From positions 1-47,976 of the forward strand of contig DASPUT010000206.1 of NCBI GenBank assembly GCA_035622735.1: a stretch of DNA of 47,976 nucleotides, read 5' to 3'. The notes beneath the pieces were generated by a model. That model saw only the letters and a program-made list of their open reading frames with translations. It was not told where the DNA came from and made no database searches. Below are positions 8,184-19,621 of the stretch, piece by piece. Origin of the DNA: Thermodesulfovibrionales bacterium. Lineage in GTDB: Bacteria > Nitrospirota > Thermodesulfovibrionia > Thermodesulfovibrionales > UBA9159. The position numbers and the translations under genes were made by a program. Position 1 is the stretch's first letter. Each line of letters begins with the position of its first letter.

Positions 8184-10727
8184 TCAGGTTGCCATGTAGC
8201 GGTTGAAGAACCACTGTTTCACTTGTTCCACGATCAGAAGGTAGAGTAGTACCATGCCTGTCAAAACAAGAAAGAACAAGGCAGGGAGCGGTTCAAAGCC
8301 GAGATAGCCGGCCAAGGGGGTAGAGGGAAGAGCGATGGCCAACGCTACCACGATGAGGGACGACGCGGTCAATAATGGATGGGGACGGCTTCTGAAGGGA
8401 TTCTTATGAGTACGGATGACAAAGATAACAAGCACTTGAGTAGCCAGGGACTCTATGAACCAGCCGGTATGAAAGAGTTTTTCACCAGCGTGAAAGACAC
8501 CCAGCATCACGAAGAAAGTGAGGAAATCAAAGAGGGAACTGACAGGGCCGATAGTTAACATGAACTTACGGACGAAGCCTATGTCCCACTTGCGGGGACG
8601 GATCAGGTATTCCTCATCAACGTTGTCTAAGGGAATAGGAACTTCAGAGAAATCGTAAAGCATATTGTTGAGTAATATCTGGACCGGGAGCATGGGAATG
8701 AAGGGAAGGAAGAGAGAGCCTCCCGCCATGCTGAACATGTTTCCGAAATTGGAACTGGTTCCCATCATTATGTATTTCATGACATTGCCGAACGTGCGTC
8801 GTCCCTCAATTACCCCTTCATACAAAACTCCCAGGTCGTGTTCCAATAGGATCATCTCGGCCGCATCTTTCGCAACATCTACTGCGCTGTCCACTGAGAT
8901 GCCGATATCTGCGGAATGAAGTGACGGGGCGTCATTGATACCGTCACCAAGGTAGCCTATCGCGTGCCCCCTCTTCTTCAGGGCGAGAATGACCCGGTTT
9001 TTCTGTATCGGGGTGACGCGGCAAAACAGGTTCGCCCTCTCCACCTGTATTGAGAGGGCTTGATCATCCATCTCATGAATCTCTGAGCCTGTGAGAATCC
9101 CGCTAATAGGCAATCCCAATTCGTTGCAGATATGCTCCGTAACCAGCTCATTGTCGCCGGTCACGATCTTGACAGAAATGCCGCTGGCGGCAATTTTCTG
9201 TAATGCCTCCTTTGCGCTTTCTTTGGGAGGATCAAGGAACGCGGCGAAACCGGCAAACACAAGCCTCTCTTCATCGCCGACAACCGCGTGAGGATGATCC
9301 GCTTCCACTTCCCTCCAGGCCACCCCTAATACGCGAAAGCCTTCACGCCCCAGCGTTTCAAAAAGTTCCTGGATTGAGGAGAGCGTTGTGTTATCCAAAG
9401 GGGACGGCGACGCACTATCTCTCTCACAGCTGGTGCAGAGACGCACAATATCCTCCGGGGCTCCCTTGACTACGAGGAGCCTTGTTCGGCCATTGTCAAC
9501 AAGCACGGAAACCCGGCGCCGTTCGAAGTCAAAGGGAACCTCATCGATTTTGCGCCAGCCCGATATGTCAATTTCAACATGCTCGAGAATCGCATCATCC
9601 AAGGGACTTTTCAGTCCCGTTTCAAAAAAACTGTTCAGGTAGGCGAGCTCCAGCACGCGCTTACTGTCCCGCCCGCGACAGTCCACATGGCGTTCCAGGC
9701 GAATGCGTGCCTCGGTCAGCGTACCTGTCTTGTCGGTGCAGAGGACGTCCATGCTTCCCAGATTCTGAATTGCGGCAAGCCGTTTCACAATCACCTTCTT
9801 CGCTGCCATACGCTGGGCACCACGGGCAAGGGTTACCGAGACAACCATAGGGAGAAGTTCGGGAGTGAGGCCCACAGCGAGGGCCACCGCAAAGAGAAAC
9901 GATTCGAGCCATGGCCTGTGGAAGAATGCATTGACGAGAAGAACAAACAACACAAGAAGCACGGTAAAACGCATGATCAGCAAGCCAAAATTGCGTGTGC
10001 CCTGCTCAAACGCAGTCGGAGGGGGCTTGGCAACCAGGGTATCGGCAATATCTCCCAACACAGTATTCGCTCCGGTACGACAAATCAGCACTTTTGCGCT
10101 GCCGCTGATTACTGAAGTCCCCAGGAGCACGGTATTGTTCGCAGCAAGGATATCTGACTCCCCTGCCAGGTCACCGGGTGTCTTCTCAACCGGATACGGT
10201 TCTCCGGTGAGAAGGGCCTGGTTTACAAAAAAGTCCTTTGACTCAAGGATGCGTCCGTCACCCGGAACCAAATCACCGGCCGCGAGAAGGACGATATCTC
10301 CGGGTACCAACTCTGCCACGGGGACCTCGCGGGATTGGCCATCGCGTAATACCTGTACATGTACGGCTACGGATTTGCGCAATCGGTCGGCTGCTTGTCC
10401 CGCTCTATGCTCCTGAAAAAAATCGAGCGTCACGCTGATGAGTACAATAACGGTGATAATGAGGAAACTGGTAACGTCGCCGGTTAGGGCTAATACGATA
10501 CTGGCAACCAGGAGAATAATGACCAGGGGGTTACGAAACTTCTCTAAGAACTGGAAAAGAAGCATCCTCTTTTTCACCGGATGCAGTAGATTAGGACCGA
10601 AATCGGCAAGACGTGCAGAGGCTTCACTCCCCGACAGCCCGGCAGGAGTTGAATCAAGTTCTCTCAGGAGGGTGGTTACGTCCTTCTGCCAGAACGCAGA
10701 TCCTTTGTTTGAAGAATGAGGAAACAT
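8184..10727 (-). CDS. mgtA: Magnesium-translocating P-type ATPase (P3B, MgtA-type)
   Basis: 847 residues. The order of motifs is that of P-type ATPases: actuator TGE in LLTGEPYPVEK, membrane helix 4 with VGLTPELLPMVV (the P3B signature region), phosphorylation loop CTDKTGTLT, nucleotide-binding KGAPEDI, and hinge GDGINDAPSLHSADIG. The C-terminus has six membrane helices, with LLNNMLYDFSEVPIPLDNVDEE as in MgtA/MgtB. It would import Mg2+ across the inner membrane at the cost of ATP. A ribosome binding site AGAGGCGG precedes the ATG. It stands alone on the minus strand, with a possible operator in its 5' region. Length is close to the usual 860-900; the N-terminal extension is short. Confidence 0.93.
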   Translation of the reverse strand: MFPHSSNKGSAFWQKDVTTLLRELDSTPAGLSGSEASARLADFGPNLLHPVKKRMLLFQFLEKFRNPLVIILLVASIVLALTGDVTSFLIITVIVLISVTLDFFQEHRAGQAADRLRKSVAVHVQVLRDGQSREVPVAELVPGDIVLLAAGDLVPGDGRILESKDFFVNQALLTGEPYPVEKTPGDLAGESDILAANNTVLLGTSVISGSAKVLICRTGANTVLGDIADTLVAKPPPTAFEQGTRNFGLLIMRFTVLLVLFVLLVNAFFHRPWLESFLFAVALAVGLTPELLPMVVSVTLARGAQRMAAKKVIVKRLAAIQNLGSMDVLCTDKTGTLTEARIRLERHVDCRGRDSKRVLELAYLNSFFETGLKSPLDDAILEHVEIDISGWRKIDEVPFDFERRRVSVLVDNGRTRLLVVKGAPEDIVRLCTSCERDSASPSPLDNTTLSSIQELFETLGREGFRVLGVAWREVEADHPHAVVGDEERLVFAGFAAFLDPPKESAKEALQKIAASGISVKIVTGDNELVTEHICNELGLPISGILTGSEIHEMDDQALSIQVERANLFCRVTPIQKNRVILALKKRGHAIGYLGDGINDAPSLHSADIGISVDSAVDVAKDAAEMILLEHDLGVLYEGVIEGRRTFGNVMKYIMMGTSSNFGNMFSMAGGSLFLPFIPMLPVQILLNNMLYDFSEVPIPLDNVDEEYLIRPRKWDIGFVRKFMLTIGPVSSLFDFLTFFVMLGVFHAGEKLFHTGWFIESLATQVLVIFVIRTHKNPFRSRPHPLLTASSLIVVALAIALPSTPLAGYLGFEPLPALFFLVLTGMVLLYLLIVEQVKQWFFNRYMAT

Positions 10728-10961: not shown

Positions 10962-11258
10962 TTAATAATCTTTGATGTTCACTTCATAGTGTTCCATGGA
11001 AGGCGGTGCAGTAAAAAAGTCTGTGAATCTGGAGACCCATTTCTGATAGAAGCCGCTCCTCTCGGTTGCGGTCATGTCGGCTTCTGTCTCCCAAAGACCT
11101 ATTGACATGCCTTGTCCCGTATCAGGGTTTGTTAGGAGGAGCCCACCCTTGAAACCCTTTTGCTTGTGGGCCTCGGGGACGACAAAATTCTTGAAGAGGT
11201 GTATCGCCTCTTCACGCTTGCCTGACTTGATGTTGAAAACCGCGACTCTTGCATTCAT
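10962..11258 (-). CDS. ABM-like (dimeric alpha-beta barrel) small protein
   Basis: 98 residues from the ATG at 11258, which has a strong ribosome binding site (AGGAGGGTATCTC). It begins NARVAVFNIKSGKREEAIHLF and includes GFKGGLLLTNPDTGQGMSIGLWETEADM, written in order; the GxxxGxxL..d...g...s...W.se.d pattern is that of antibiotic-biosynthesis-monooxygenase-like ferredoxin folds. Members act as haem oxygenases, monooxygenases or have no known activity, so no substrate is assigned. It stands between mgtA and the cobalamin cluster, in the same direction as both, with no evident functional link. Confidence 0.7.
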   Translation of the reverse strand: MNARVAVFNIKSGKREEAIHLFKNFVVPEAHKQKGFKGGLLLTNPDTGQGMSIGLWETEADMTATERSGFYQKWVSRFTDFFTAPPSMEHYEVNIKDY

Positions 11259-11532
11259 GAGATACCCTCCTTTTCTGTAATAGATTCCCAAAAAGTCGTT
11301 AGACTCAAAGGCACGATAAGAACTTAACAGCAAACCCTCAGCTTGTCAATTCTTCCTGTTGATGGGAGGGGGATTAACAGTGTTGAAGGTAGATACTCTG
11401 GAAACCGATGCGCGTGGCTGGATGTCAGAACCGATAGTTTATCGGTGGAGAACTGTGAAGGTTATCTTCTCTCCTTTTGATCCTTTCCTGTCTTGCCTCT
11501 ATCAAGACGTCGATGCACTGAGTGAGTTGGTC

Positions 11533-12345
11533 TCAGATATGATTCCCCAGCCACGCTGAGGCCGCCATCAAGAAAAGTATTTCCGATATTTCGGTCATCG
11601 CACCGAAATTGTCACCGGTGAGCCCACCGAACTTCCTGAGACAAAAATGTCCGGAGAGGAGGCTGAAGATATAGAGGCCGAACAAGATGGTCCCCGCAAA
11701 CGCCACGCTTTTCGCGCCGTAGGCCGCAAAGAGATATAATCTTCCCACGAGGAGATATAGGGCGACTACTACAAACGTCGAGAGAAACACATGGAGCGGC
11801 CTCACATTATCCAGGAAGATCCGGCCGAGCCCATCTTTGCGGGCAGGGATACCGTGACTCATCGCGGGCACCGTCACCCATTTCGAAAATGCAGGCATCA
11901 GAAATACCAAGCATAGTGCAGCGTTGAGGGGGACCGAATGAAACAATGCGTTCAGGAGGACATATTTCATGAGCAGCGTCGCTGCCATCGTGATGGCCCC
12001 GATCGCGCCAATGGTGCTGCCCTTCATCACCGTCAACCTCTTCTCAACATCTATCGCCTGATCACCGGTGGCTTTGACCGCGAGCGCATCAAAGGTGTCG
12101 ATGAGCCCGTCCATGTCGAATCCGCCACTTGTGAGGAGCCCGGCGATAATGACGATTCCGCTCACGACGTCAGGCCCGAATATCTGGAGAGCCGCGAGCC
12201 CTGTAATTGCGATAAGGAGTCCTTGAATCGCGCCGGCCAACGGGAAGAATATCGTCGCTCCAGCAAGATCCATATCAGAAACCTCGCCCCTCACCTTTAC
12301 CGGCAGTATCGTGAGAAACTGTAATGCGAGCAGCATCTGCTTCAT
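11533..12345 (-). CDS. cobS: Adenosylcobinamide-GDP ribazoletransferase (cobalamin synthase)
   Basis: 270 residues, highly hydrophobic with 6-7 membrane segments. CobS joins adenosylcobinamide-GDP to alpha-ribazole (or its phosphate) to make adenosylcobalamin (phosphate) at the inner membrane. Family marks are the N-terminal ALQFLTILPV, the metal-binding GGFDMDGLIDTFDAL near residue 85-100, and GGLTGDNFGAMTEI near the end. Its ATG follows the cobT stop codon with no gap (TAAATG), so translation is coupled. It is the last gene of the riboswitch-led minus-strand operon and performs the final assembly step using the base made by the upstream genes. Confidence 0.96.
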   Translation of the reverse strand: MKQMLLALQFLTILPVKVRGEVSDMDLAGATIFFPLAGAIQGLLIAITGLAALQIFGPDVVSGIVIIAGLLTSGGFDMDGLIDTFDALAVKATGDQAIDVEKRLTVMKGSTIGAIGAITMAATLLMKYVLLNALFHSVPLNAALCLVFLMPAFSKWVTVPAMSHGIPARKDGLGRIFLDNVRPLHVFLSTFVVVALYLLVGRLYLFAAYGAKSVAFAGTILFGLYIFSLLSGHFCLRKFGGLTGDNFGAMTEISEILFLMAASAWLGNHI

Positions 12346-13407
12346 TTAATGCAGGATCTCATCGGAGACACCGGCCTCAGCAAAGGTCGCCATCTCACGG
12401 TATATCTTCAGCCCCGCTTCTATGATCGTCATCGCAAGCGCCGCGCCCGTTCCCTCTCCAAGCCTCAGATCGAGGTCAAGGATCGGCCTCAGTCCCATCT
12501 TTGCGAGCATCGCCTTATGCCCTCTCTCTACAGAGTTATGGGCAGCGAACAGGTAGTCCTTCGTCTTCGGTTCGAGACAGTATGCGAGAAGTGCTCCTGC
12601 GGTTGATATAAAACCGTCTATCACCACCGGGATGCGGTTCGATGCGGCACCGAGCACCAAACCGGCGATGCCGCCGATCTCGGCGCCCCCCACTTTCGAA
12701 AGGACATCAAGGGCATCAGTCGAATCGGGCTTGTTCAACCGAACCGCGCCTTCAATCACCTCGATCTTTCTCCGCAAAGATTCATCGGATATGCCTGTCC
12801 CCTTACCCGTAACTTCGGAAACGGGCCTGCCGGTCAGCACAGAGGCGATAGCACTCGAAGGTGTTGTATTTCCTATCCCCATGTCGCCGGTGCCGAAGAT
12901 CTGATATCCCTCTTTCGCGTAGCTGTCCGCAAGCTCTATCCCGATTTCGAGGCACCGTAACGCCTCCTGTCTCGTCATTGCCGGACCTTTCAGAAAATTC
13001 TTCGTCCCCCTCACGGCCTTCATCTTCGTGAGGCCTTCGGCCTCGGCAAAGTCATGATCAACACCGATGTCCACGACGACGATCTCGGCCCCTGCGTGAC
13101 GGGCAAGGACATTGATGCCGGCTCCGCCCCTGAGGAAGTTGAACACCATCTGAGCGGTAACTTCCTTCGGATAGGCGGATACCCCTTCCTGTACCACCCC
13201 GTGGTCTCCGGCGAATGTGAAGACAACCTTCTTTTCGAGGATTGGGTTCCTGTTCCGGGTGATCGCGACGAGCCTCCTTGCAAACTCCTCGAGCCTACCG
13301 AGACTTCCCGGCGGCTTGGTGAGATTGTCAAGCCGCTTCTGCGCCTCTTCGTACATCGCCCTGTCCACCGGCCTGATGTTCTTCACTCTTTCGGTTACAA
13401 CATCCAT
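12346..13407 (-). CDS. cobT: Nicotinate-nucleotide--dimethylbenzimidazole phosphoribosyltransferase
   Basis: 353 residues, the usual length. CobT transfers phosphoribose from nicotinate mononucleotide to a lower-ligand base, giving alpha-ribazole phosphate. Visible family features: [15 protein letters not shown] near the start, [16 protein letters not shown] (substrate site), [32 protein letters not shown] and the catalytic region [14 protein letters not shown] ribosome binding site GGGGAGAG precedes the ATG. It lies between the ThiC-family gene (71 bases upstream) and cobS (no gap). In bza operons of anaerobes cobT sits with the base-making genes, which fits this neighbourhood. Confidence 0.97.
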
Positions 13408-13478
13408 CGTATTCTCTCCCCGTTATTTATTGACTGATGTTTCATCGCCGTGACGAAACGGCCCTTCTCCGACGCCTT

Positions 13479-14780
13479 CTACCCCTTATCCGAGCCCGCC
13501 ATGTCCCTCTCGAACATGCCGCGGAGAATATCGTTGGCACAGAACTTTCCGCACATGGTGCATGAATGTTCATCGCCGTTGCCTCGCCTGTCCTTTATTT
13601 CCTTCGCTCTCTCGGCGTCTATTGCAAGCGAGAATTGGGTGGACCACTGCATGTCCCGTCTCGCCTTCGACATCACTTTGTCCTTCTGCATGTTCTTATG
13701 CTTTATCATGTCGCCCACGTGCGCGGCAATTCTCGAAGCGATGACCCCTTCACGCACATCTTCGGGGAAAGGCAGGCCGAGGTGCTCGGATGGCGTCACA
13801 TAGCATATGAAATCAGCACCGTAGGACGAAGAGAGCGCTGCCCCGATGGCAGCCGTAATATGGTCATAACCGGGCGCGATGTCGGTCGTGATCGGCCCGA
13901 GCATGTAAAAAGGAGACTCGCCGCTCATCTTTTTCTCCATAATGATATTCGCCTCTATCTCGTTGATCGGGATATGCCCGGGGCCTTCGACCATCGTCTG
14001 GCACCCGGTCTCTCTGCCGGTCTCGGCAAGTTCGCAATTTATGAGAAGCTCCTGGATCTGGACCCTGTCGGTCGCATCGTGGATCGCGCCTGCCCGGAAA
14101 CCGTTGCCGAGGCTCAGGACCGTATCATGCTTTTTCAGTATCGCGGCTACCCTGTCGAAATGCTCATAGAGAGGGTTCTCCCTATTGTTATGCTCCATCC
14201 ACGCGACCATGTAAGAGCCGCCCTTTGATACGAGCCCGCCGTAACGGTAGTGCTGCTTCCTGAGCATCTCGACAGTCCTTCTGTTAATGCCGCAGTGGAT
14301 CGCCATGAAGGCCACACCCTCTTCGCACTGTTTCTCAGTGATCTCGAAGAGGAGCTCCGCCGGCATATTGACTGCCGCACCGTATTTCTCTATCGCAATC
14401 GCAAAGGCCTCATAGAGGGGGACCGTTCCGACGGGAAGGCTTATCGCCTCCATGACCGCCCTCCTGATGCCGGTAATGTCACCGCCGACACTCAGGTCCA
14501 TGAGTGTGTCAGCCCCGTATTTTTCGGCCACCAGCGCCTTTTCGACTTCCATCCGGATGTCGGCGATGTCGGTGGATGTGCCTATCGATGCGTTTACCTT
14601 TGTCCTGAGCCCCTTGCCGATGCCGACGTTCTTCTGCCTTCTGTTCCTGTTGGCAGGGATGACGATCTTTCCGGACGCCACACGGCTCCTCACCGTTTCC
14701 ACATCCACCCCCTCGGCCGTTCCAACTGTCCTGATCTCTTCTGTCACTTCTCCCTTTGCAGCTCTTTCGAGTTGTGTCAT
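13479..14780 (-). CDS. bzaF: 5-hydroxybenzimidazole synthase BzaF (ThiC superfamily), likely; ThiC is the alternative
   Basis: 433 residues from the ATG at 14780 (ribosome binding site GGAGGAGAAC). The radical SAM ThiC fold is clear: GIGKGLRTKVNASIGTS, GGDITGIRR, VEGPGHIP, APGYDHITAAIGAA and the C-terminal cluster motif CTMCGKFC (residues 407-414). Canonical ThiC makes HMP phosphate from AIR; the paralogue BzaF makes 5-hydroxybenzimidazole from the same substrate. I favour BzaF for two reasons. First, the ThiC motif GDGLRPG reads GNGFRAG here (residues 225-231). Second, it lies in a cobalamin-riboswitch operon with cobT, cobS, a methyltransferase and two B12 radical SAM enzymes, and no TPP riboswitch precedes it. 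Other thiamin genes are absent from the window. Assignment is inference; an earlier GTG-type start is less likely. Confidence 0.75.
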   Translation of the reverse strand: MTQLERAAKGEVTEEIRTVGTAEGVDVETVRSRVASGKIVIPANRNRRQKNVGIGKGLRTKVNASIGTSTDIADIRMEVEKALVAEKYGADTLMDLSVGGDITGIRRAVMEAISLPVGTVPLYEAFAIAIEKYGAAVNMPAELLFEITEKQCEEGVAFMAIHCGINRRTVEMLRKQHYRYGGLVSKGGSYMVAWMEHNNRENPLYEHFDRVAAILKKHDTVLSLGNGFRAGAIHDATDRVQIQELLINCELAETGRETGCQTMVEGPGHIPINEIEANIIMEKKMSGESPFYMLGPITTDIAPGYDHITAAIGAALSSSYGADFICYVTPSEHLGLPFPEDVREGVIASRIAAHVGDMIKHKNMQKDKVMSKARRDMQWSTQFSLAIDAERAKEIKDRRGNGDEHSCTMCGKFCANDILRGMFERDMAGSDKG

Positions 14781-14871
14781 GTTCTCCTCCTTCCGAAATG
14801 TACCCGTCACGCGCGGGTCAAAAGAAAATCCTTCACCGTTTTATTCAGCCTCTATCCCTAACGATAAGGGT

Positions 14872-16383
14872 TCATACCGATACCGTCTTTACTAACCCGG
14901 TGATCTTCCTTCCCGTATCCTGAACGACAGACGCTATCCCAGCCGCGTCCATCCCCTCCCCCGATTCGAGGGTCCGAAGGCTTTCATCAAATATATTCAC
15001 CAGCAACTGATTTACCTCTCGATACTTTTCCCGCATGCCAGGCGACTCGATGACCTTTCCGTTCCAGATCTCCTCCATGCAGGTAAAAAGAATATTCGTG
15101 ATCTGTCTCATGATATCGGCAAGCACTGCCACTTCCGGTGATCTGAAATAGGCCGTGCCTTCATAAGGGGAAGCCTGCACTGTCTCAAGACGGTCGTCGC
15201 GCCTGAGATTTTGGTAGGCCTCGGTTCCCTCCAGGATAATCTGGTGGTGGTAGAGCACATTCGCGGTGACAGCCAGATTCTTCAGCAGGTCGTTTCTCCT
15301 GAGGAATTCAAAATTAGTGCGGATATCTGCCAATGAAGAGTCGGGCTCAAACATAATGAAGCCCACATTCGGCTCGATCCCGTGTCTCCTGAGTATCTTG
15401 AGCGCCTGCTCGTTCTGGGCCACGGTCGTCATCTTTCTCATCCTCCTCAGTGACTCGTCCCTGCCGCTCTCAAGACCGATGAGGATATGACGAAGCCCTG
15501 CCTCGACCAGCGGTCCGATCACGCCATCATGGATATCGTTCACGCGGGCCTCGATGCCGAAGCGGATATTTCGCGGCCGCAGAAGGGAAGCGATGCGCAA
15601 AGCCCTCTCCTGGCCTCTCTGACCGGGACCGAAGAAATTCGGGTCTGTAAAATAGAAATCCCTCGCTCCCTTCTCGGACATTATCGCGTCTATCTCCTTG
15701 ACAATATTTTCAGGGCTCCTCCAGCGCCAGGGCGCTCCTTGACCATAAAAGGAATTTATATAGCAGAAGGTGCACCTCCCGTAGCATCCCCTGCTCCCAA
15801 GGAGGTTCACCTCGTCCAGACGATAAAGGGCCTCCGTCCGAACCGGGAAGGGCAGGAGATCGAGGTCATCAACCGGCCTCCGCTTCAGACACTTGATGCC
15901 GCCTGATCCATCCCGGAAGGCGAGTCCCGGAACGGGAGGCACGTGAGCGCCCCGCGACAGATGTTCAGCCAGACCCGCAAAGGGCATCTCGGGCTCACCG
16001 GTGATGACCGAATCTACCGCCCGGCATCTTCTCAGAATATCCTCGAATGCGATCGTCGGATAGAACCCAAAGGCGGTTATCGTGAGGGCCGGTCTTTCGC
16101 TCTTCACCCGTTCGAGAAAATCGAAGAGCGCCAGGTCGGTTTTCCAGTGGTAAACCATATGCACTCCCAGGATATCCGGCCTGAATGCAGCTGTGATGCT
16201 CCTAATCTCTTCATAGGAAAGTCTGTCAAGGTATCCCTCGATTATCTCGACCTCATGCCCCCTGCTGATCAACATCCCCGCGGCATAGCCGGTGAGAAGG
16301 CACGAGGACAGAGGCGTGTTTGCGATGTCATTGCACCGCTCTGGCGCAACGCTCCTCGGATGTTCAAGGAAAAGTATCCTCAC
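14872..16383 (-). CDS. B12-binding radical SAM enzyme, BzaD/BzaE-like
   Basis: 503 residues from a GTG at 16383 that overlaps the stop of the preceding radical SAM gene (GTGA). The N-terminal 150 residues look like a cobalamin-binding Rossmann domain (ILFLEHPR.., GYAAGMLISRGHEVEIIEG, DILGVHMVYHW). The radical SAM cluster motif is C200-x3-C204-x2-C207 (CYGRCTFCY), followed by FYFTDPNFFG and GLESGRDESLRRM. A C-terminal helical extension of about 120 residues follows the barrel. In the known anaerobic dimethylbenzimidazole pathway BzaD and BzaE carry out C-methylation steps on 5-methoxybenzimidazole; this protein is a candidate for one of them. Which one cannot be decided here. Confidence 0.75.
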   Translation of the reverse strand: MRILFLEHPRSVAPERCNDIANTPLSSCLLTGYAAGMLISRGHEVEIIEGYLDRLSYEEIRSITAAFRPDILGVHMVYHWKTDLALFDFLERVKSERPALTITAFGFYPTIAFEDILRRCRAVDSVITGEPEMPFAGLAEHLSRGAHVPPVPGLAFRDGSGGIKCLKRRPVDDLDLLPFPVRTEALYRLDEVNLLGSRGCYGRCTFCYINSFYGQGAPWRWRSPENIVKEIDAIMSEKGARDFYFTDPNFFGPGQRGQERALRIASLLRPRNIRFGIEARVNDIHDGVIGPLVEAGLRHILIGLESGRDESLRRMRKMTTVAQNEQALKILRRHGIEPNVGFIMFEPDSSLADIRTNFEFLRRNDLLKNLAVTANVLYHHQIILEGTEAYQNLRRDDRLETVQASPYEGTAYFRSPEVAVLADIMRQITNILFTCMEEIWNGKVIESPGMREKYREVNQLLVNIFDESLRTLESGEGMDAAGIASVVQDTGRKITGLVKTVSV

Positions 16384-17702
16384 CGGACCTCCTGCCAGAT
16401 GAATGTGTTATTGCAGAAATGGAGCGTCTCGAGCCTGTACCGCAGCGTATCGAAGGGCGCCGGGTTGTAATAGGTCGGATAGAGAAGGTCGGTCCCGTTG
16501 CCGATGACCCCTTCGCTTCTCGCCCTCTTTTCTATGGCCGTTCCCGGCAAGATGCGTATGTTATTAAGAACGACCGTCCCGAGGTTCTTCCGTACGCGGT
16601 GCAGATCATAGAGCCGCTCGATCATACGCGCCCCCTTTTGAGCCGTCGTCTCGGTCTCGCCGGGCACATTCGCCATGAAGTGGTATACACTTATCACATC
16701 GGTTTTAGAGGCGATCCTCGCCGCTTTGAATATGTCTTCTTCATCAAGTCTCTTCCCGAGCGCGACGAGGGATTCCTGACAGAGACCGTCCGGAGAAAAC
16801 GAAAAACACTCGCATCCCGCCTTCTCGAAGAGCGAGGCGTTCCTGTCGTTGAACTGATCCTCTCTCATGAAGCCGTCCCATCTCACCTTCAGCTTCCTGC
16901 GAAGGATCTCGCCGCAAATCTCTTCGAGATGGCCCCGCGGGATATTCACCACGGGGTCTGTGAAATGGAAACTCTCTATACCGTACTCTTTGTGAAGGAA
17001 CTCCATTTCATCCACAACCGATGCAGGGGGCCGGCACCTGACCCTTTTCCCCTGAAGTTTGGGGTAGACACAATAGGAGCATTCATAGGGACATCCGCGT
17101 TTTGTTTCAATGCCGACGGCAGGGACGTAGGTGTTTATATTGAGATAGCGGGAAGGATCGAGTACGCTCCTATCGGGGGGGACGTATCGGGACATGTCGA
17201 GATCGCGGGAAGGGAGAGCGATGCTTATTCTCCCGTCTTTTCGAGTGCAGAGACCCTTCAACGAAGGCGGATTATCGAGAGAACGAAGAAGGCGTGGGAA
17301 AGTCAGCTCCGCTTCTCCGATGAGGCCGTAGCGTATTTCAGGCAGGTCGCGCATCAGCCGCTCCGGGAAAAGAGCAAATCCCGTCCCGCCCGCGACGATA
17401 CATGCCTTCGGCAGGATTGATGAGACGAGGCGGACGGTCGCGACGAAATGCGGGATAAGGGAGGCCGTTTTATTGCCCAGTGGATCGATGTTTCTCAGGG
17501 ATAACCCAACGACGTCCGGGCAGAAGGTGAGAAGTCTTTCTTTGAGCAGCGTGAAGGGGTCCTGGTGGAGGTTCATATCGATGATATCCACCTCCCGACC
17601 GGAATCGATGAGACGGCTCGCGAGAGATACAATACCGATAGGGTAAACCTTTTCGGATGAAACGCTCTCGACCGAAGGAGTCTGGACCATGAGCACACGC
17701 AT
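16380..17702 (-). CDS. B12-binding radical SAM enzyme, BzaD/BzaE-like
   Basis: 440 residues from the ATG at 17702, with GGAG upstream inside the end of the methyltransferase gene (five-base gap). A longer in-frame reading upstream lies within the methyltransferase gene and is rejected. The N-terminal part (residues 1-145) is a B12-binding-like domain: VLMVQTPSV, PIGIVSLASRLIDSGREVDIIDMN, VAGGTGFALFPE. The radical SAM motif is C204-x3-C208-x2-C211 (CPYECSYC), then FHFTDPVVNIPRGHLEEIC. It overlaps the next gene by four bases. With that gene it forms a pair of B12 radical SAM enzymes, as in bza operons; specific step not assigned. Confidence 0.75.
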   Translation of the reverse strand: MRVLMVQTPSVESVSSEKVYPIGIVSLASRLIDSGREVDIIDMNLHQDPFTLLKERLLTFCPDVVGLSLRNIDPLGNKTASLIPHFVATVRLVSSILPKACIVAGGTGFALFPERLMRDLPEIRYGLIGEAELTFPRLLRSLDNPPSLKGLCTRKDGRISIALPSRDLDMSRYVPPDRSVLDPSRYLNINTYVPAVGIETKRGCPYECSYCVYPKLQGKRVRCRPPASVVDEMEFLHKEYGIESFHFTDPVVNIPRGHLEEICGEILRRKLKVRWDGFMREDQFNDRNASLFEKAGCECFSFSPDGLCQESLVALGKRLDEEDIFKAARIASKTDVISVYHFMANVPGETETTAQKGARMIERLYDLHRVRKNLGTVVLNNIRILPGTAIEKRARSEGVIGNGTDLLYPTYYNPAPFDTLRYRLETLHFCNNTFIWQEVR

Positions 17703-17707
17703 GTCTT

Positions 17708-19315
17708 TTACTCCAAGAGGAGAAGACCGTAATATTTCACGAAGTCTCCTCTTCTTTCCAATGTCCTGAGTCTGCCTCCCGCATTCCTGACCGTTTCGAA
17801 GACATCTATTCCAGCGGCCTCCATGGAAGGCCTCGCCTCTTTTGTGTTGCGGCATGTCCCGTCCGTAGTGCAGGAACTGCAGAGGGAGCATGGACCCGCC
17901 CAAAAGGCAAAGGCCTTATAAAAACCAGCCTTGAATGCCTCTTTTTCCGCCTCCAGTACCCTCAGCTGGAACTCCCTTGTCGGAGGCTCACCTTCCAACA
18001 AGATGGCATGACGGTAATCGGCGAGAATCTTTCTCGTCTTTTCAGGAGGAACAGAAAAGGGGGGGCAATGGGGCTTTCCGTAATGTCCACAACCATACCG
18101 GCAGCGGGAATCGGTCCAATCGGCAACATGGATGCTTCCGACAGAGATTACCTTCGCACCGCGGAACCCAAGATCCCCGAGCCTCGCGGTGAGACGGGTT
18201 TTCGGGTCAAGACGAAGTTCCGTCAGCCTCTCACTGGTTCTCGAAGCTATGATGAGAGCGGTATCTGTGCCGAGCGGTATGAGACCCGTCGTGTAGAGTC
18301 TCAGGGCTTCCAACTCTTCTTTCATCGGCAGACATGAAAAGACCCTTCCGTTATAGGTATTAATAAACATGTTCAGGTCGAAGAGGGCCGCCTTTTCAGG
18401 GTAATGCTCAAGAAAGAAGTCATGGATCACAAGGAACCCTTGCTGGTTAAGGCAACGTGAGGCAGAGGCTAGTATATGGGGGAGTTCTTTTTCGGAATAG
18501 GCATGAATGATGTTCGAGAGTACGACAAGGTCGTATCGCTCCGCATCTTCCGGCCATGGTTCGAGGATATTTGCGGCGGTGAAAGACGACCTCTCGCCCA
18601 ACCCTCGTTCTTGTATCAACTCCCTTGTATAATCGAGAACCTCCGGAATATCAATAAGGGTGGCCTTCAGGAAAGGCATCTGGCTGAGAAATCCTACTGC
18701 TATGGCACCGGACCCGGCCCCGATATCGAGCATCTTTCCGTCAAAGGAAAGGCCTTCAAAGAGGGGAAGAATCTCCTTCACCTTTGTCCGAGCGATACAG
18801 TCCATGGCGTTGATGTATCGTCGTATCCCCTCTGCTCTTTCACTGTCATCCGAGGAGTCATTCCCGGCCCGACCGCCCGACCTCAGGCAATCTTTCAGTC
18901 CGGTCCACTTCGAAAAGAGCTCCTTGCGCCATAGGATGGAATTGCCCTGATACTTCTCCTTGCCGATTACGAGGTATTCACTCGCTATCTTCGAGTTGTA
19001 ATACTGTGAACCGTCACGGATCACAAGCTTGAGGGCGCAAAGGGCACCGAGGAATCTCTCCAGTCCTCCGGGATCAAAATCGAAAGCATCAGAAAGTTCG
19101 TGAAGGCCGTTGCTTCCCGAATCGAGACGCGTAAAGACCCTGGTTTCGACGGCGGTGAAGAGGACCTCTGAAAACCAATACCCTGTGGCGAGATCTTCAA
19201 GATACTGGGGACCTCTGTCCTGAGGGTCCGGATTCAGGTGCGGGAGCCCGTGATCCCTCAATAATGAAAGATCCTTAGAGCTCTTGCCCGGAAGATTGCG
19301 TCCTGCGTCTTTCAT
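17708..19315 (-). CDS. O-methyltransferase (BzaC-like) fused to DUF2284 metal-binding domain
   Basis: 535 residues; ribosome binding site AGGAGG eight bases before the ATG. Residues about 35-125 resemble the dimerisation domain of plant/bacterial O-methyltransferases (YWFSEVLFTAVETRVFTRLD, winged-helix style). Residues about 180-355 are the SAM-binding part with MLDIGAGSGAIAV, ATLIDIPEV, SNIIHAYSE and the general-base region VIHDFFLEHYPE. From about residue 375 a second domain follows with the cysteine pattern of DUF2284: CRYGCGHYGKPHCPPFS, then GPCSLCSSCTTDGTC and CRNTKEARPSMEAAGIDVFET. BzaC in the anaerobic pathway methylates 5-hydroxybenzimidazole. The fusion is unusual and its second domain has no role I can assign; an iron-sulphur or zinc site is plausible. 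First gene of the operon after the riboswitch and leader terminator. Confidence 0.8.
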   Translation of the reverse strand: MKDAGRNLPGKSSKDLSLLRDHGLPHLNPDPQDRGPQYLEDLATGYWFSEVLFTAVETRVFTRLDSGSNGLHELSDAFDFDPGGLERFLGALCALKLVIRDGSQYYNSKIASEYLVIGKEKYQGNSILWRKELFSKWTGLKDCLRSGGRAGNDSSDDSERAEGIRRYINAMDCIARTKVKEILPLFEGLSFDGKMLDIGAGSGAIAVGFLSQMPFLKATLIDIPEVLDYTRELIQERGLGERSSFTAANILEPWPEDAERYDLVVLSNIIHAYSEKELPHILASASRCLNQQGFLVIHDFFLEHYPEKAALFDLNMFINTYNGRVFSCLPMKEELEALRLYTTGLIPLGTDTALIIASRTSERLTELRLDPKTRLTARLGDLGFRGAKVISVGSIHVADWTDSRCRYGCGHYGKPHCPPFSVPPEKTRKILADYRHAILLEGEPPTREFQLRVLEAEKEAFKAGFYKAFAFWAGPCSLCSSCTTDGTCRNTKEARPSMEAAGIDVFETVRNAGGRLRTLERRGDFVKYYGLLLLE

Positions 19316-19355
19316 CCTTTAACCTCCTGTCCTCGGGAAGCACCCTGCAAAGCAC

Positions 19356-19391
19356 AAAAAAAAGCACGGACATAAAACAGTGGTCCATGCT
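19356..19391 (-). terminator. Intrinsic terminator in the riboswitch leader
   Basis: On the minus strand AGCATGGAC and GTCCGTGCT pair (nine base pairs, one G-U) around an 11-base loop and are followed directly by eight T. It lies between the riboswitch and the methyltransferase start, so cobalamin binding probably acts by premature termination, sparing the ribosome binding site. Confidence 0.85.
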
Positions 19392-19410
19392 GTTCGTTCT
19401 TTCAGGGCTA

Positions 19411-19585
19411 CGGTACAGGCAGGTCTTCTGGCTTCCGGATCTTCCTACTCACCGGCCTTCCCGTCCCGATAGTTCGGGACAGTGACATCTTCGGCTTTCG
19501 TACCCGGTTACAGCGGCGGGCCCGCTCCCGATTCGGCCTTTGCAGCCCCACGGGATTCCCTATTACGCACAAAGCACCTGTAACG
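19411..19585 (-). promoter_or_regulatory. Cobalamin riboswitch
   Basis: The minus-strand transcript has the conserved core in order: AATAGGGAATC, GGGGCTGCA, CCGCTGTAACCGGG, and the B12 box AGCCAGAAGACCTGCCT. The ends TACAGG and CCTGTA can form P1. A perfect hairpin GTCCCGA/TCGGGAC sits in the variable region before the B12 box. It is followed 20 bases later by the leader terminator and then the methyltransferase gene, so it should reduce expression of the six-gene operon when adenosylcobalamin is abundant. Confidence 0.93.
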
Positions 19586-19592
19586 CTCCTAT

Positions 19593-19621
19593 TGTATATC
19601 CATCAATCACCTTTTTGTCAA
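19593..19621 (-). promoter_or_regulatory. Sigma70-type promoter of the cobalamin operon
   Basis: On the minus strand a perfect -35 hexamer TTGACA (19621-19616) is followed by 17 bases and the -10 hexamer TATACA (19598-19593). Transcription would begin at the edge of the riboswitch P1 stem, as expected for a riboswitch leader. Confidence 0.8.

Follow-up and report, generated by a model that had tools for sequence, protein, structure and literature searches.

The genes bzaC, bzaD, bzaE, bzaF, cobT and cobS, found in a stretch of 47,976 nt from an anaerobic Thermodesulfovibrionales bacterium of the Nitrospirota (contig DASPUT010000206.1; the whole stretch is called the window below), very probably form a bzaF-type bza operon that makes 5,6-dimethylbenzimidazole without oxygen and attaches this base to a cobamide. 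The pathway itself is already known and the window is another example of it, with some features of its lineage. All six open reading frames (ORFs) are read from the minus strand between positions 19315 and 11533 in the order bzaC-bzaD-bzaE-bzaF-cobT-cobS, with 5 nt between bzaC and bzaD, a 4-nt overlap of bzaD and bzaE, 91 nt between bzaE and bzaF, 71 nt between bzaF and cobT and no gap between cobT and cobS. An earlier note on this DNA had placed six minus-strand genes behind a cobalamin riboswitch and a leader terminator and had assigned them to the bza and cobamide families; the ORFs do lie there, and all six proteins, encoded next to each other downstream of one cobalamin riboswitch, match these families.

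The fourth gene encodes a ThiC-like protein (PF01964, 608 bits) with the cluster motif CTMCGKFC (CX2CX3C), which by its clade, its operon context and the published function of bzaF (PMC7726332, PMC11117688) is the predicted BzaF and is 85–91% identical to the copies in related cobamide operons. The spacing of the motif was rejected as a marker for BzaF, as ThiC from Nitrospirota carries the same spacing. It could be argued that the gene serves thiamin biosynthesis and that the operon modifies imported benzimidazole or 5-hydroxybenzimidazole, as the protein also passes the generic ThiC model TIGR00190 (579 bits, cut-off 460). We regard this as extremely improbable, since the genome has two ThiC-family genes, with a separate ThiC (47% identical to BzaF) encoded on another contig, and since both types are split in a tree of 70 sequences (quick method, support only from the Shimodaira–Hasegawa-like approximate likelihood ratio test, SH-aLRT). 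Here 16 BzaF rows, the window and 15 other copies, all of them located in cobamide operons, lie beyond a branch with a support of 100, and 16 ThiC rows including the ThiC of the same genome are set apart, also with a support of 100; BzaA and BzaB of Clostridia are placed elsewhere. From the separate ThiC and the tree we thus rejected the gene as the thiamin ThiC of the genome. Clustering with thiamin ThiC, named in the earlier note as the result that would refute its proposal, was looked for in this tree and separate clades were found.

The bza operon of Acetobacterium dehalogenans (bzaABcobTCDE) provides a comparison for the tailoring enzymes BzaC, BzaD and BzaE. BzaC, in which Pfam recognizes Methyltransf_2, Dimerisation and a C-terminal DUF2284, shows 45% identity over 345 amino acids to its A. 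dehalogenans homologue. Its O-methyltransferase part covers residues from about 30 to 360, H271 in the SNxxHAYSE motif is invariant across 50 BzaC, and the modelled fold aligns with the O-methyltransferases human ASMT and RedM (hydroxyindole-type); the ASMT substrate, a 5-hydroxyindole, is chemically close to 5-hydroxybenzimidazole. BzaD reaches 680.7 bits with the BzaD model TIGR04385 (cut-off 450), is 52% identical to BzaD from A. dehalogenans and possesses a CxxxCxxC motif (C204/C208/C211) with cysteines invariant in the window and seven relatives. BzaE is matched by Radical_SAM (78 bits), is 58–80% identical to BzaE in Nitrospirota operons and 25% identical to BzaD, and shows 51% identity over 479 amino acids to the A. 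dehalogenans BzaE encoded at the same operon position. With BzaD passing the curated model and BzaE being this similar to the Acetobacterium protein, both belong to the B12 radical SAM family, as had been proposed, and not to unrelated families. One might still suspect an incomplete or altered operon that ends at 5-methoxy- or 5-methoxy-6-methyl-benzimidazole through functional drift of BzaD or BzaE, as no curated model for BzaE was among the NCBIfam matches, its B12-binding domain (29.4 bits) is slightly below the Pfam cut-off of 32.1, and the relative G041 has bzaF-bzaC-bzaE-cobT-cobS without bzaD in its operon (L186, G041:C15, 3049-9539). This genome is 100% complete and contains no BzaD over the cut-off anywhere, being a natural bzaD-less set, and shows that the gene set varies within the order. 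Nevertheless such a shortened route appears quite improbable for the window, as the radical SAM cysteines are intact, both proteins share about half of their residues with the Acetobacterium enzymes of the same operon, and bzaC, bzaD and bzaE stay together in most relatives.

The operon ends with the two genes for the attachment of the base. CobT (nicotinate-nucleotide–dimethylbenzimidazole phosphoribosyltransferase) passes TIGR03160 with 470 bits (cut-off 319.3) and groups in the tree with bza-linked CobT of genomes from the same family. CobS (adenosylcobinamide-GDP ribazoletransferase) passes PF02654 (132.6 bits, cut-off 23.2), stays below the cut-off of TIGR00317 (92.9 versus 110) and shares 62–69% identity with the CobS proteins that close relatives encode in their bza operons. 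On the basis of published studies of this pathway we infer each reaction, the reaction order and the product as follows: BzaF would convert aminoimidazole ribotide into 5-hydroxybenzimidazole, CobT would activate it as alpha-ribotide, BzaC would O-methylate it to the 5-methoxy form, and BzaD and BzaE as methylcobalamin-dependent radical SAM enzymes would methylate the ring and replace the methoxy group, resulting in dimethylbenzimidazole. CobS would finally join the activated base to adenosylcobinamide-GDP. CobT reportedly acts before BzaC, as suggested by the title of work that Mathur and colleagues published in 2020.

Riboswitch and leader terminator would shut off the whole set once enough cobamide is bound. 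The riboswitch match spans the complete model (positions 1–189 of 189), its score is far above the gathering threshold of 31.5 bits, and it is the only one in the window and one of three cobalamin riboswitches in the genome. The claim that the whole set is under one switch therefore stands with respect to the single riboswitch but not with respect to completeness, as cobU is absent from the operon. The leader from 19420 to 19320 folds with −36.2 kcal/mol (z = −2.9), and its hairpin is missed by the automatic terminator scan because this does not accept loops longer than 8 nt. The candidate promoter agrees with 10 of the 12 consensus letters and is the weakest element, as it was called by eye only and the strict promoter scan did not call TTGACA-17-TATACA, rejecting it on the last letter. 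All features are listed in Table 1.

Table 1: Features of the bza operon and its leader in the window.
Feature	Position	Strand	Basis
candidate sigma-70 promoter	19621-19593	minus	TTGACA 19621-19616, 17 nt, TATACA 19598-19593, read by eye
cobalamin riboswitch aptamer RF00174	19596-19401	minus	115.2 bits, E 2.7e-28
candidate intrinsic terminator	19391-19356	minus	9-bp hairpin 19391-19363, 11-nt loop, then seven further T
bzaC	19315-17708	minus	Pfam domains and identity to Acetobacterium dehalogenans BzaC
DUF2284 domain of BzaC	18154-17708	minus	Pfam, 123.7 bits
bzaD	17702-16380	minus	TIGR04385 BzaD model
bzaE	16383-14872	minus	Radical_SAM and B12-binding; identity to Acetobacterium BzaE
bzaF	14780-13479	minus	PF01964 (ThiC_Rad_SAM) and BzaF clade
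cobT	13407-12346	minus	TIGR03160
cobS	12345-11533	minus	PF02654

Several observations weigh against a complete anaerobic route to a dimethylbenzimidazole cobamide. The tree used for the assignment of BzaF is without the sequence of any biochemically tested BzaF, and the specificity of CobT is predicted, with a second CobT-CobS set being present in the genome. A genome scan for BluB, the aerobic dimethylbenzimidazole synthase, gave no match over the cut-off of 150 bits, which speaks for the anaerobic route, but weak BluB-family matches with 87.7, 49.7 and 29.2 bits count against it. Finally, no cbiC, cbiD, cbiL, cbiF or cbiH was found in the assembly (95% complete), where a CbiE-like gene, a split RsmI and a SUMT located at the end of a contig are the only tetrapyrrole (TP) methylases. 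As these ring genes are missing the corrin may be imported, which would change its source but not the route to the ligand. It is possible, if somewhat short of probable, that the operon works on salvaged corrinoids, with imported cobinamide or foreign cobamides being rebuilt with the organism's own dimethylbenzimidazole; such a salvage would be a refinement compatible with the proposed operon function and no alternative to it. Besides the missing ring genes, riboswitch-linked BtuF/BtuC and a TonB-type receptor beside a second cobamide cluster point to salvage. On the other hand CobQ and CbiE are present, for which an organism that only salvages cobinamide would have little need, and six of the eight genomes of the same order with BzaD have CbiD. 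Moreover, the metagenome-assembled genome (MAG) is fragmented, and all three of the contigs shorter than 3 kb that were sampled are given as N; the assembly may thus just lack a cbi operon that the organism possesses.

The second cluster with the order cobU-cobT-cobS-cobC-cobQ is located on contig C141 (L109 5082-12853), together with two cobalamin riboswitches and the uptake genes mentioned above, and CobO is encoded on the same contig; the names BtuF, BtuC, TonB-type receptor, CobC and CobQ were assigned by reading the sequences. Both CobT genes are 73% identical and stand apart in the tree, and among 18 genomes no other has two of them. Obvious contamination by C141 was rejected, as C141 and the contig of the window both agree with the sampled genome in their tetranucleotide composition (a weak test). 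For this reason the two CobT genes may be real, and the second contig may also be a binning error.

BzaD above the cut-off was detected in eight of the 61 genomes of the order-level set, and the named relatives belong to the Nitrospirota, with Thermodesulfovibrio-type MAGs among them, and many to the Bacillota. In the loci that were read bzaF is found in Nitrospirota and bzaA with bzaB in Bacillota. Other operons from Nitrospirota contain this gene set as well: clusters of the type bzaC-D-E/bzaF-cobU-cobT-cobS (e.g. L024, L026, L066) share genes, order and the upstream cobalamin riboswitch with the window, which differs from them in having neither a second riboswitch nor the cobU that many relatives carry between bzaF and cobT. 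From the 12 Nitrospirota loci with bzaF after bzaE (window included) nine carry a second cobalamin riboswitch between these two genes, so that C-D-E and F-cobU-cobT-cobS form two regulated modules there. The other three loci (the window, L020 and L040) have just one switch, and the bzaE-bzaF gap of the window is too small for an aptamer. No paper on Nitrospirota with dimethylbenzimidazole was found in the literature searched.

The operon of the type found in the anaerobes Acetobacterium woodii and Eubacterium limosum, which make cobalamin (PMC8123684), has the tailoring enzymes C, D and E together with cobT in common with the window and keeps the C-D-E order. In contrast, the window has BzaF in place of BzaA and BzaB, includes cobS and carries cobT after bzaF. 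Geobacter sulfurreducens, which has bzaF and cobT, produces the 5-hydroxybenzimidazolyl cobamide (PMC7726332, PMC8123684); its single ThiC-like BzaF for the first step, placed with nucleotide-loop genes, is shared by the window, which additionally has bzaC, bzaD and bzaE, making dimethylbenzimidazole the expected end product. Among the bza loci of other bacteria, that of Desulfosporosinus nitroreducens encodes, upstream of a ThiC-like gene of normal length, an additional ThiC-like protein (L028 3644-5011) that has diverged very strongly (branch length 1.37). BzaB from Alkalibaculum sporogenes (L071 1984-3255) and from a Eubacteriaceae MAG (L086 6583-7854) are both without the C-terminal three-cysteine iron-sulphur motif, which suggests that BzaB can act without a cluster of its own, perhaps as a partner of BzaA. 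In the window itself, a small ABM-domain protein (10962-11261) is encoded between the operon and a large P-type cation-transporting ATPase (8184-10727), which is located downstream on the strand of the operon and is probably unrelated to it.

The sole unexplained part of the operon is the DUF2284 domain of BzaC (residues 388–534). It contains the seven cysteines C405, C409, C417, C476, C479, C482 and C488, of which six are invariant in all 50 full-length BzaC and C488 is found in 48 of them. Of 58 BzaC proteins 50 carry the domain, among them those of every deep lineage of the BzaC tree, and BzaC from Nitrospirota, found in 16 of 396 genomes, has it in each case. A fusion peculiar to the window genome was thus rejected, the fusion being the usual form of BzaC. 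Presence and absence of DUF2284 require four changes on the tree, which are confined to the rows of Eubacteriaceae and Cryptoclostridium, and from these sequences it appears to have been lost repeatedly in Eubacteriaceae. Several BzaC from Acetobacterium (including that of an A. woodii MAG) are without the domain, in contrast to the window. In the literature read on DUF2284 the domain is only listed, and a sequence search of the domain against the PDB gave no match. When the model of the domain (pLDDT 89) was compared with the PDB, the epoxyqueuosine reductase QueG, which depends on B12 and iron-sulphur, and nitroreductases came out on top with E values of 0.17 or worse and a TM score of 0.49, giving no significant match to a QueG-like corrinoid fold. 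A gene for a stand-alone DUF2284 protein on contig C141 (L109 3-4743) adjoins genes for a URO-D-type methyltransferase, a corrinoid protein and a RACo-type reductive activator, and in the bza locus of a relative (L017 3920-5080) a DUF5714-DUF2284 fusion protein is encoded between bzaE and bzaF.

It is a tentative and somewhat unlikely idea that DUF2284 belonged to BzaC ancestrally and has a function in it, namely as an iron-sulphur module handling a corrinoid or low-potential electrons; as an example, it may hold or reduce the cobamide on which BzaD and BzaE depend. Pointers in this direction are its presence in most BzaC and on the deep branches, the neighbours of the stand-alone gene and the QueG and nitroreductase neighbours in the fold search, which are not significant. 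Several Acetobacterium species without DUF2284 yet keep BzaD and BzaE, which counts against a strict need for it. If the idea were true, the domain would have been overlooked because it was lost in acetogen lineages near those in which the pathway was worked out. In any case DUF2284 leaves the description of BzaC with a gap that can be tested.

Dimethylbenzimidazole is the base that sets true vitamin B12 apart from its look-alikes. Any bza gene was reported for 96 of about 11,000 genomes and complete anaerobic dimethylbenzimidazole pathways for few species (PMC6461909), and according to a review from 2024 the suppliers of dimethylbenzimidazole in dechlorinating communities are unclear (PMC11321594). 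With the compact single-switch set described here, a member of the Nitrospirota becomes a further candidate supplier of true B12 in anoxic habitats, and the six genes provide a clean cassette with which the pathway can be tested.

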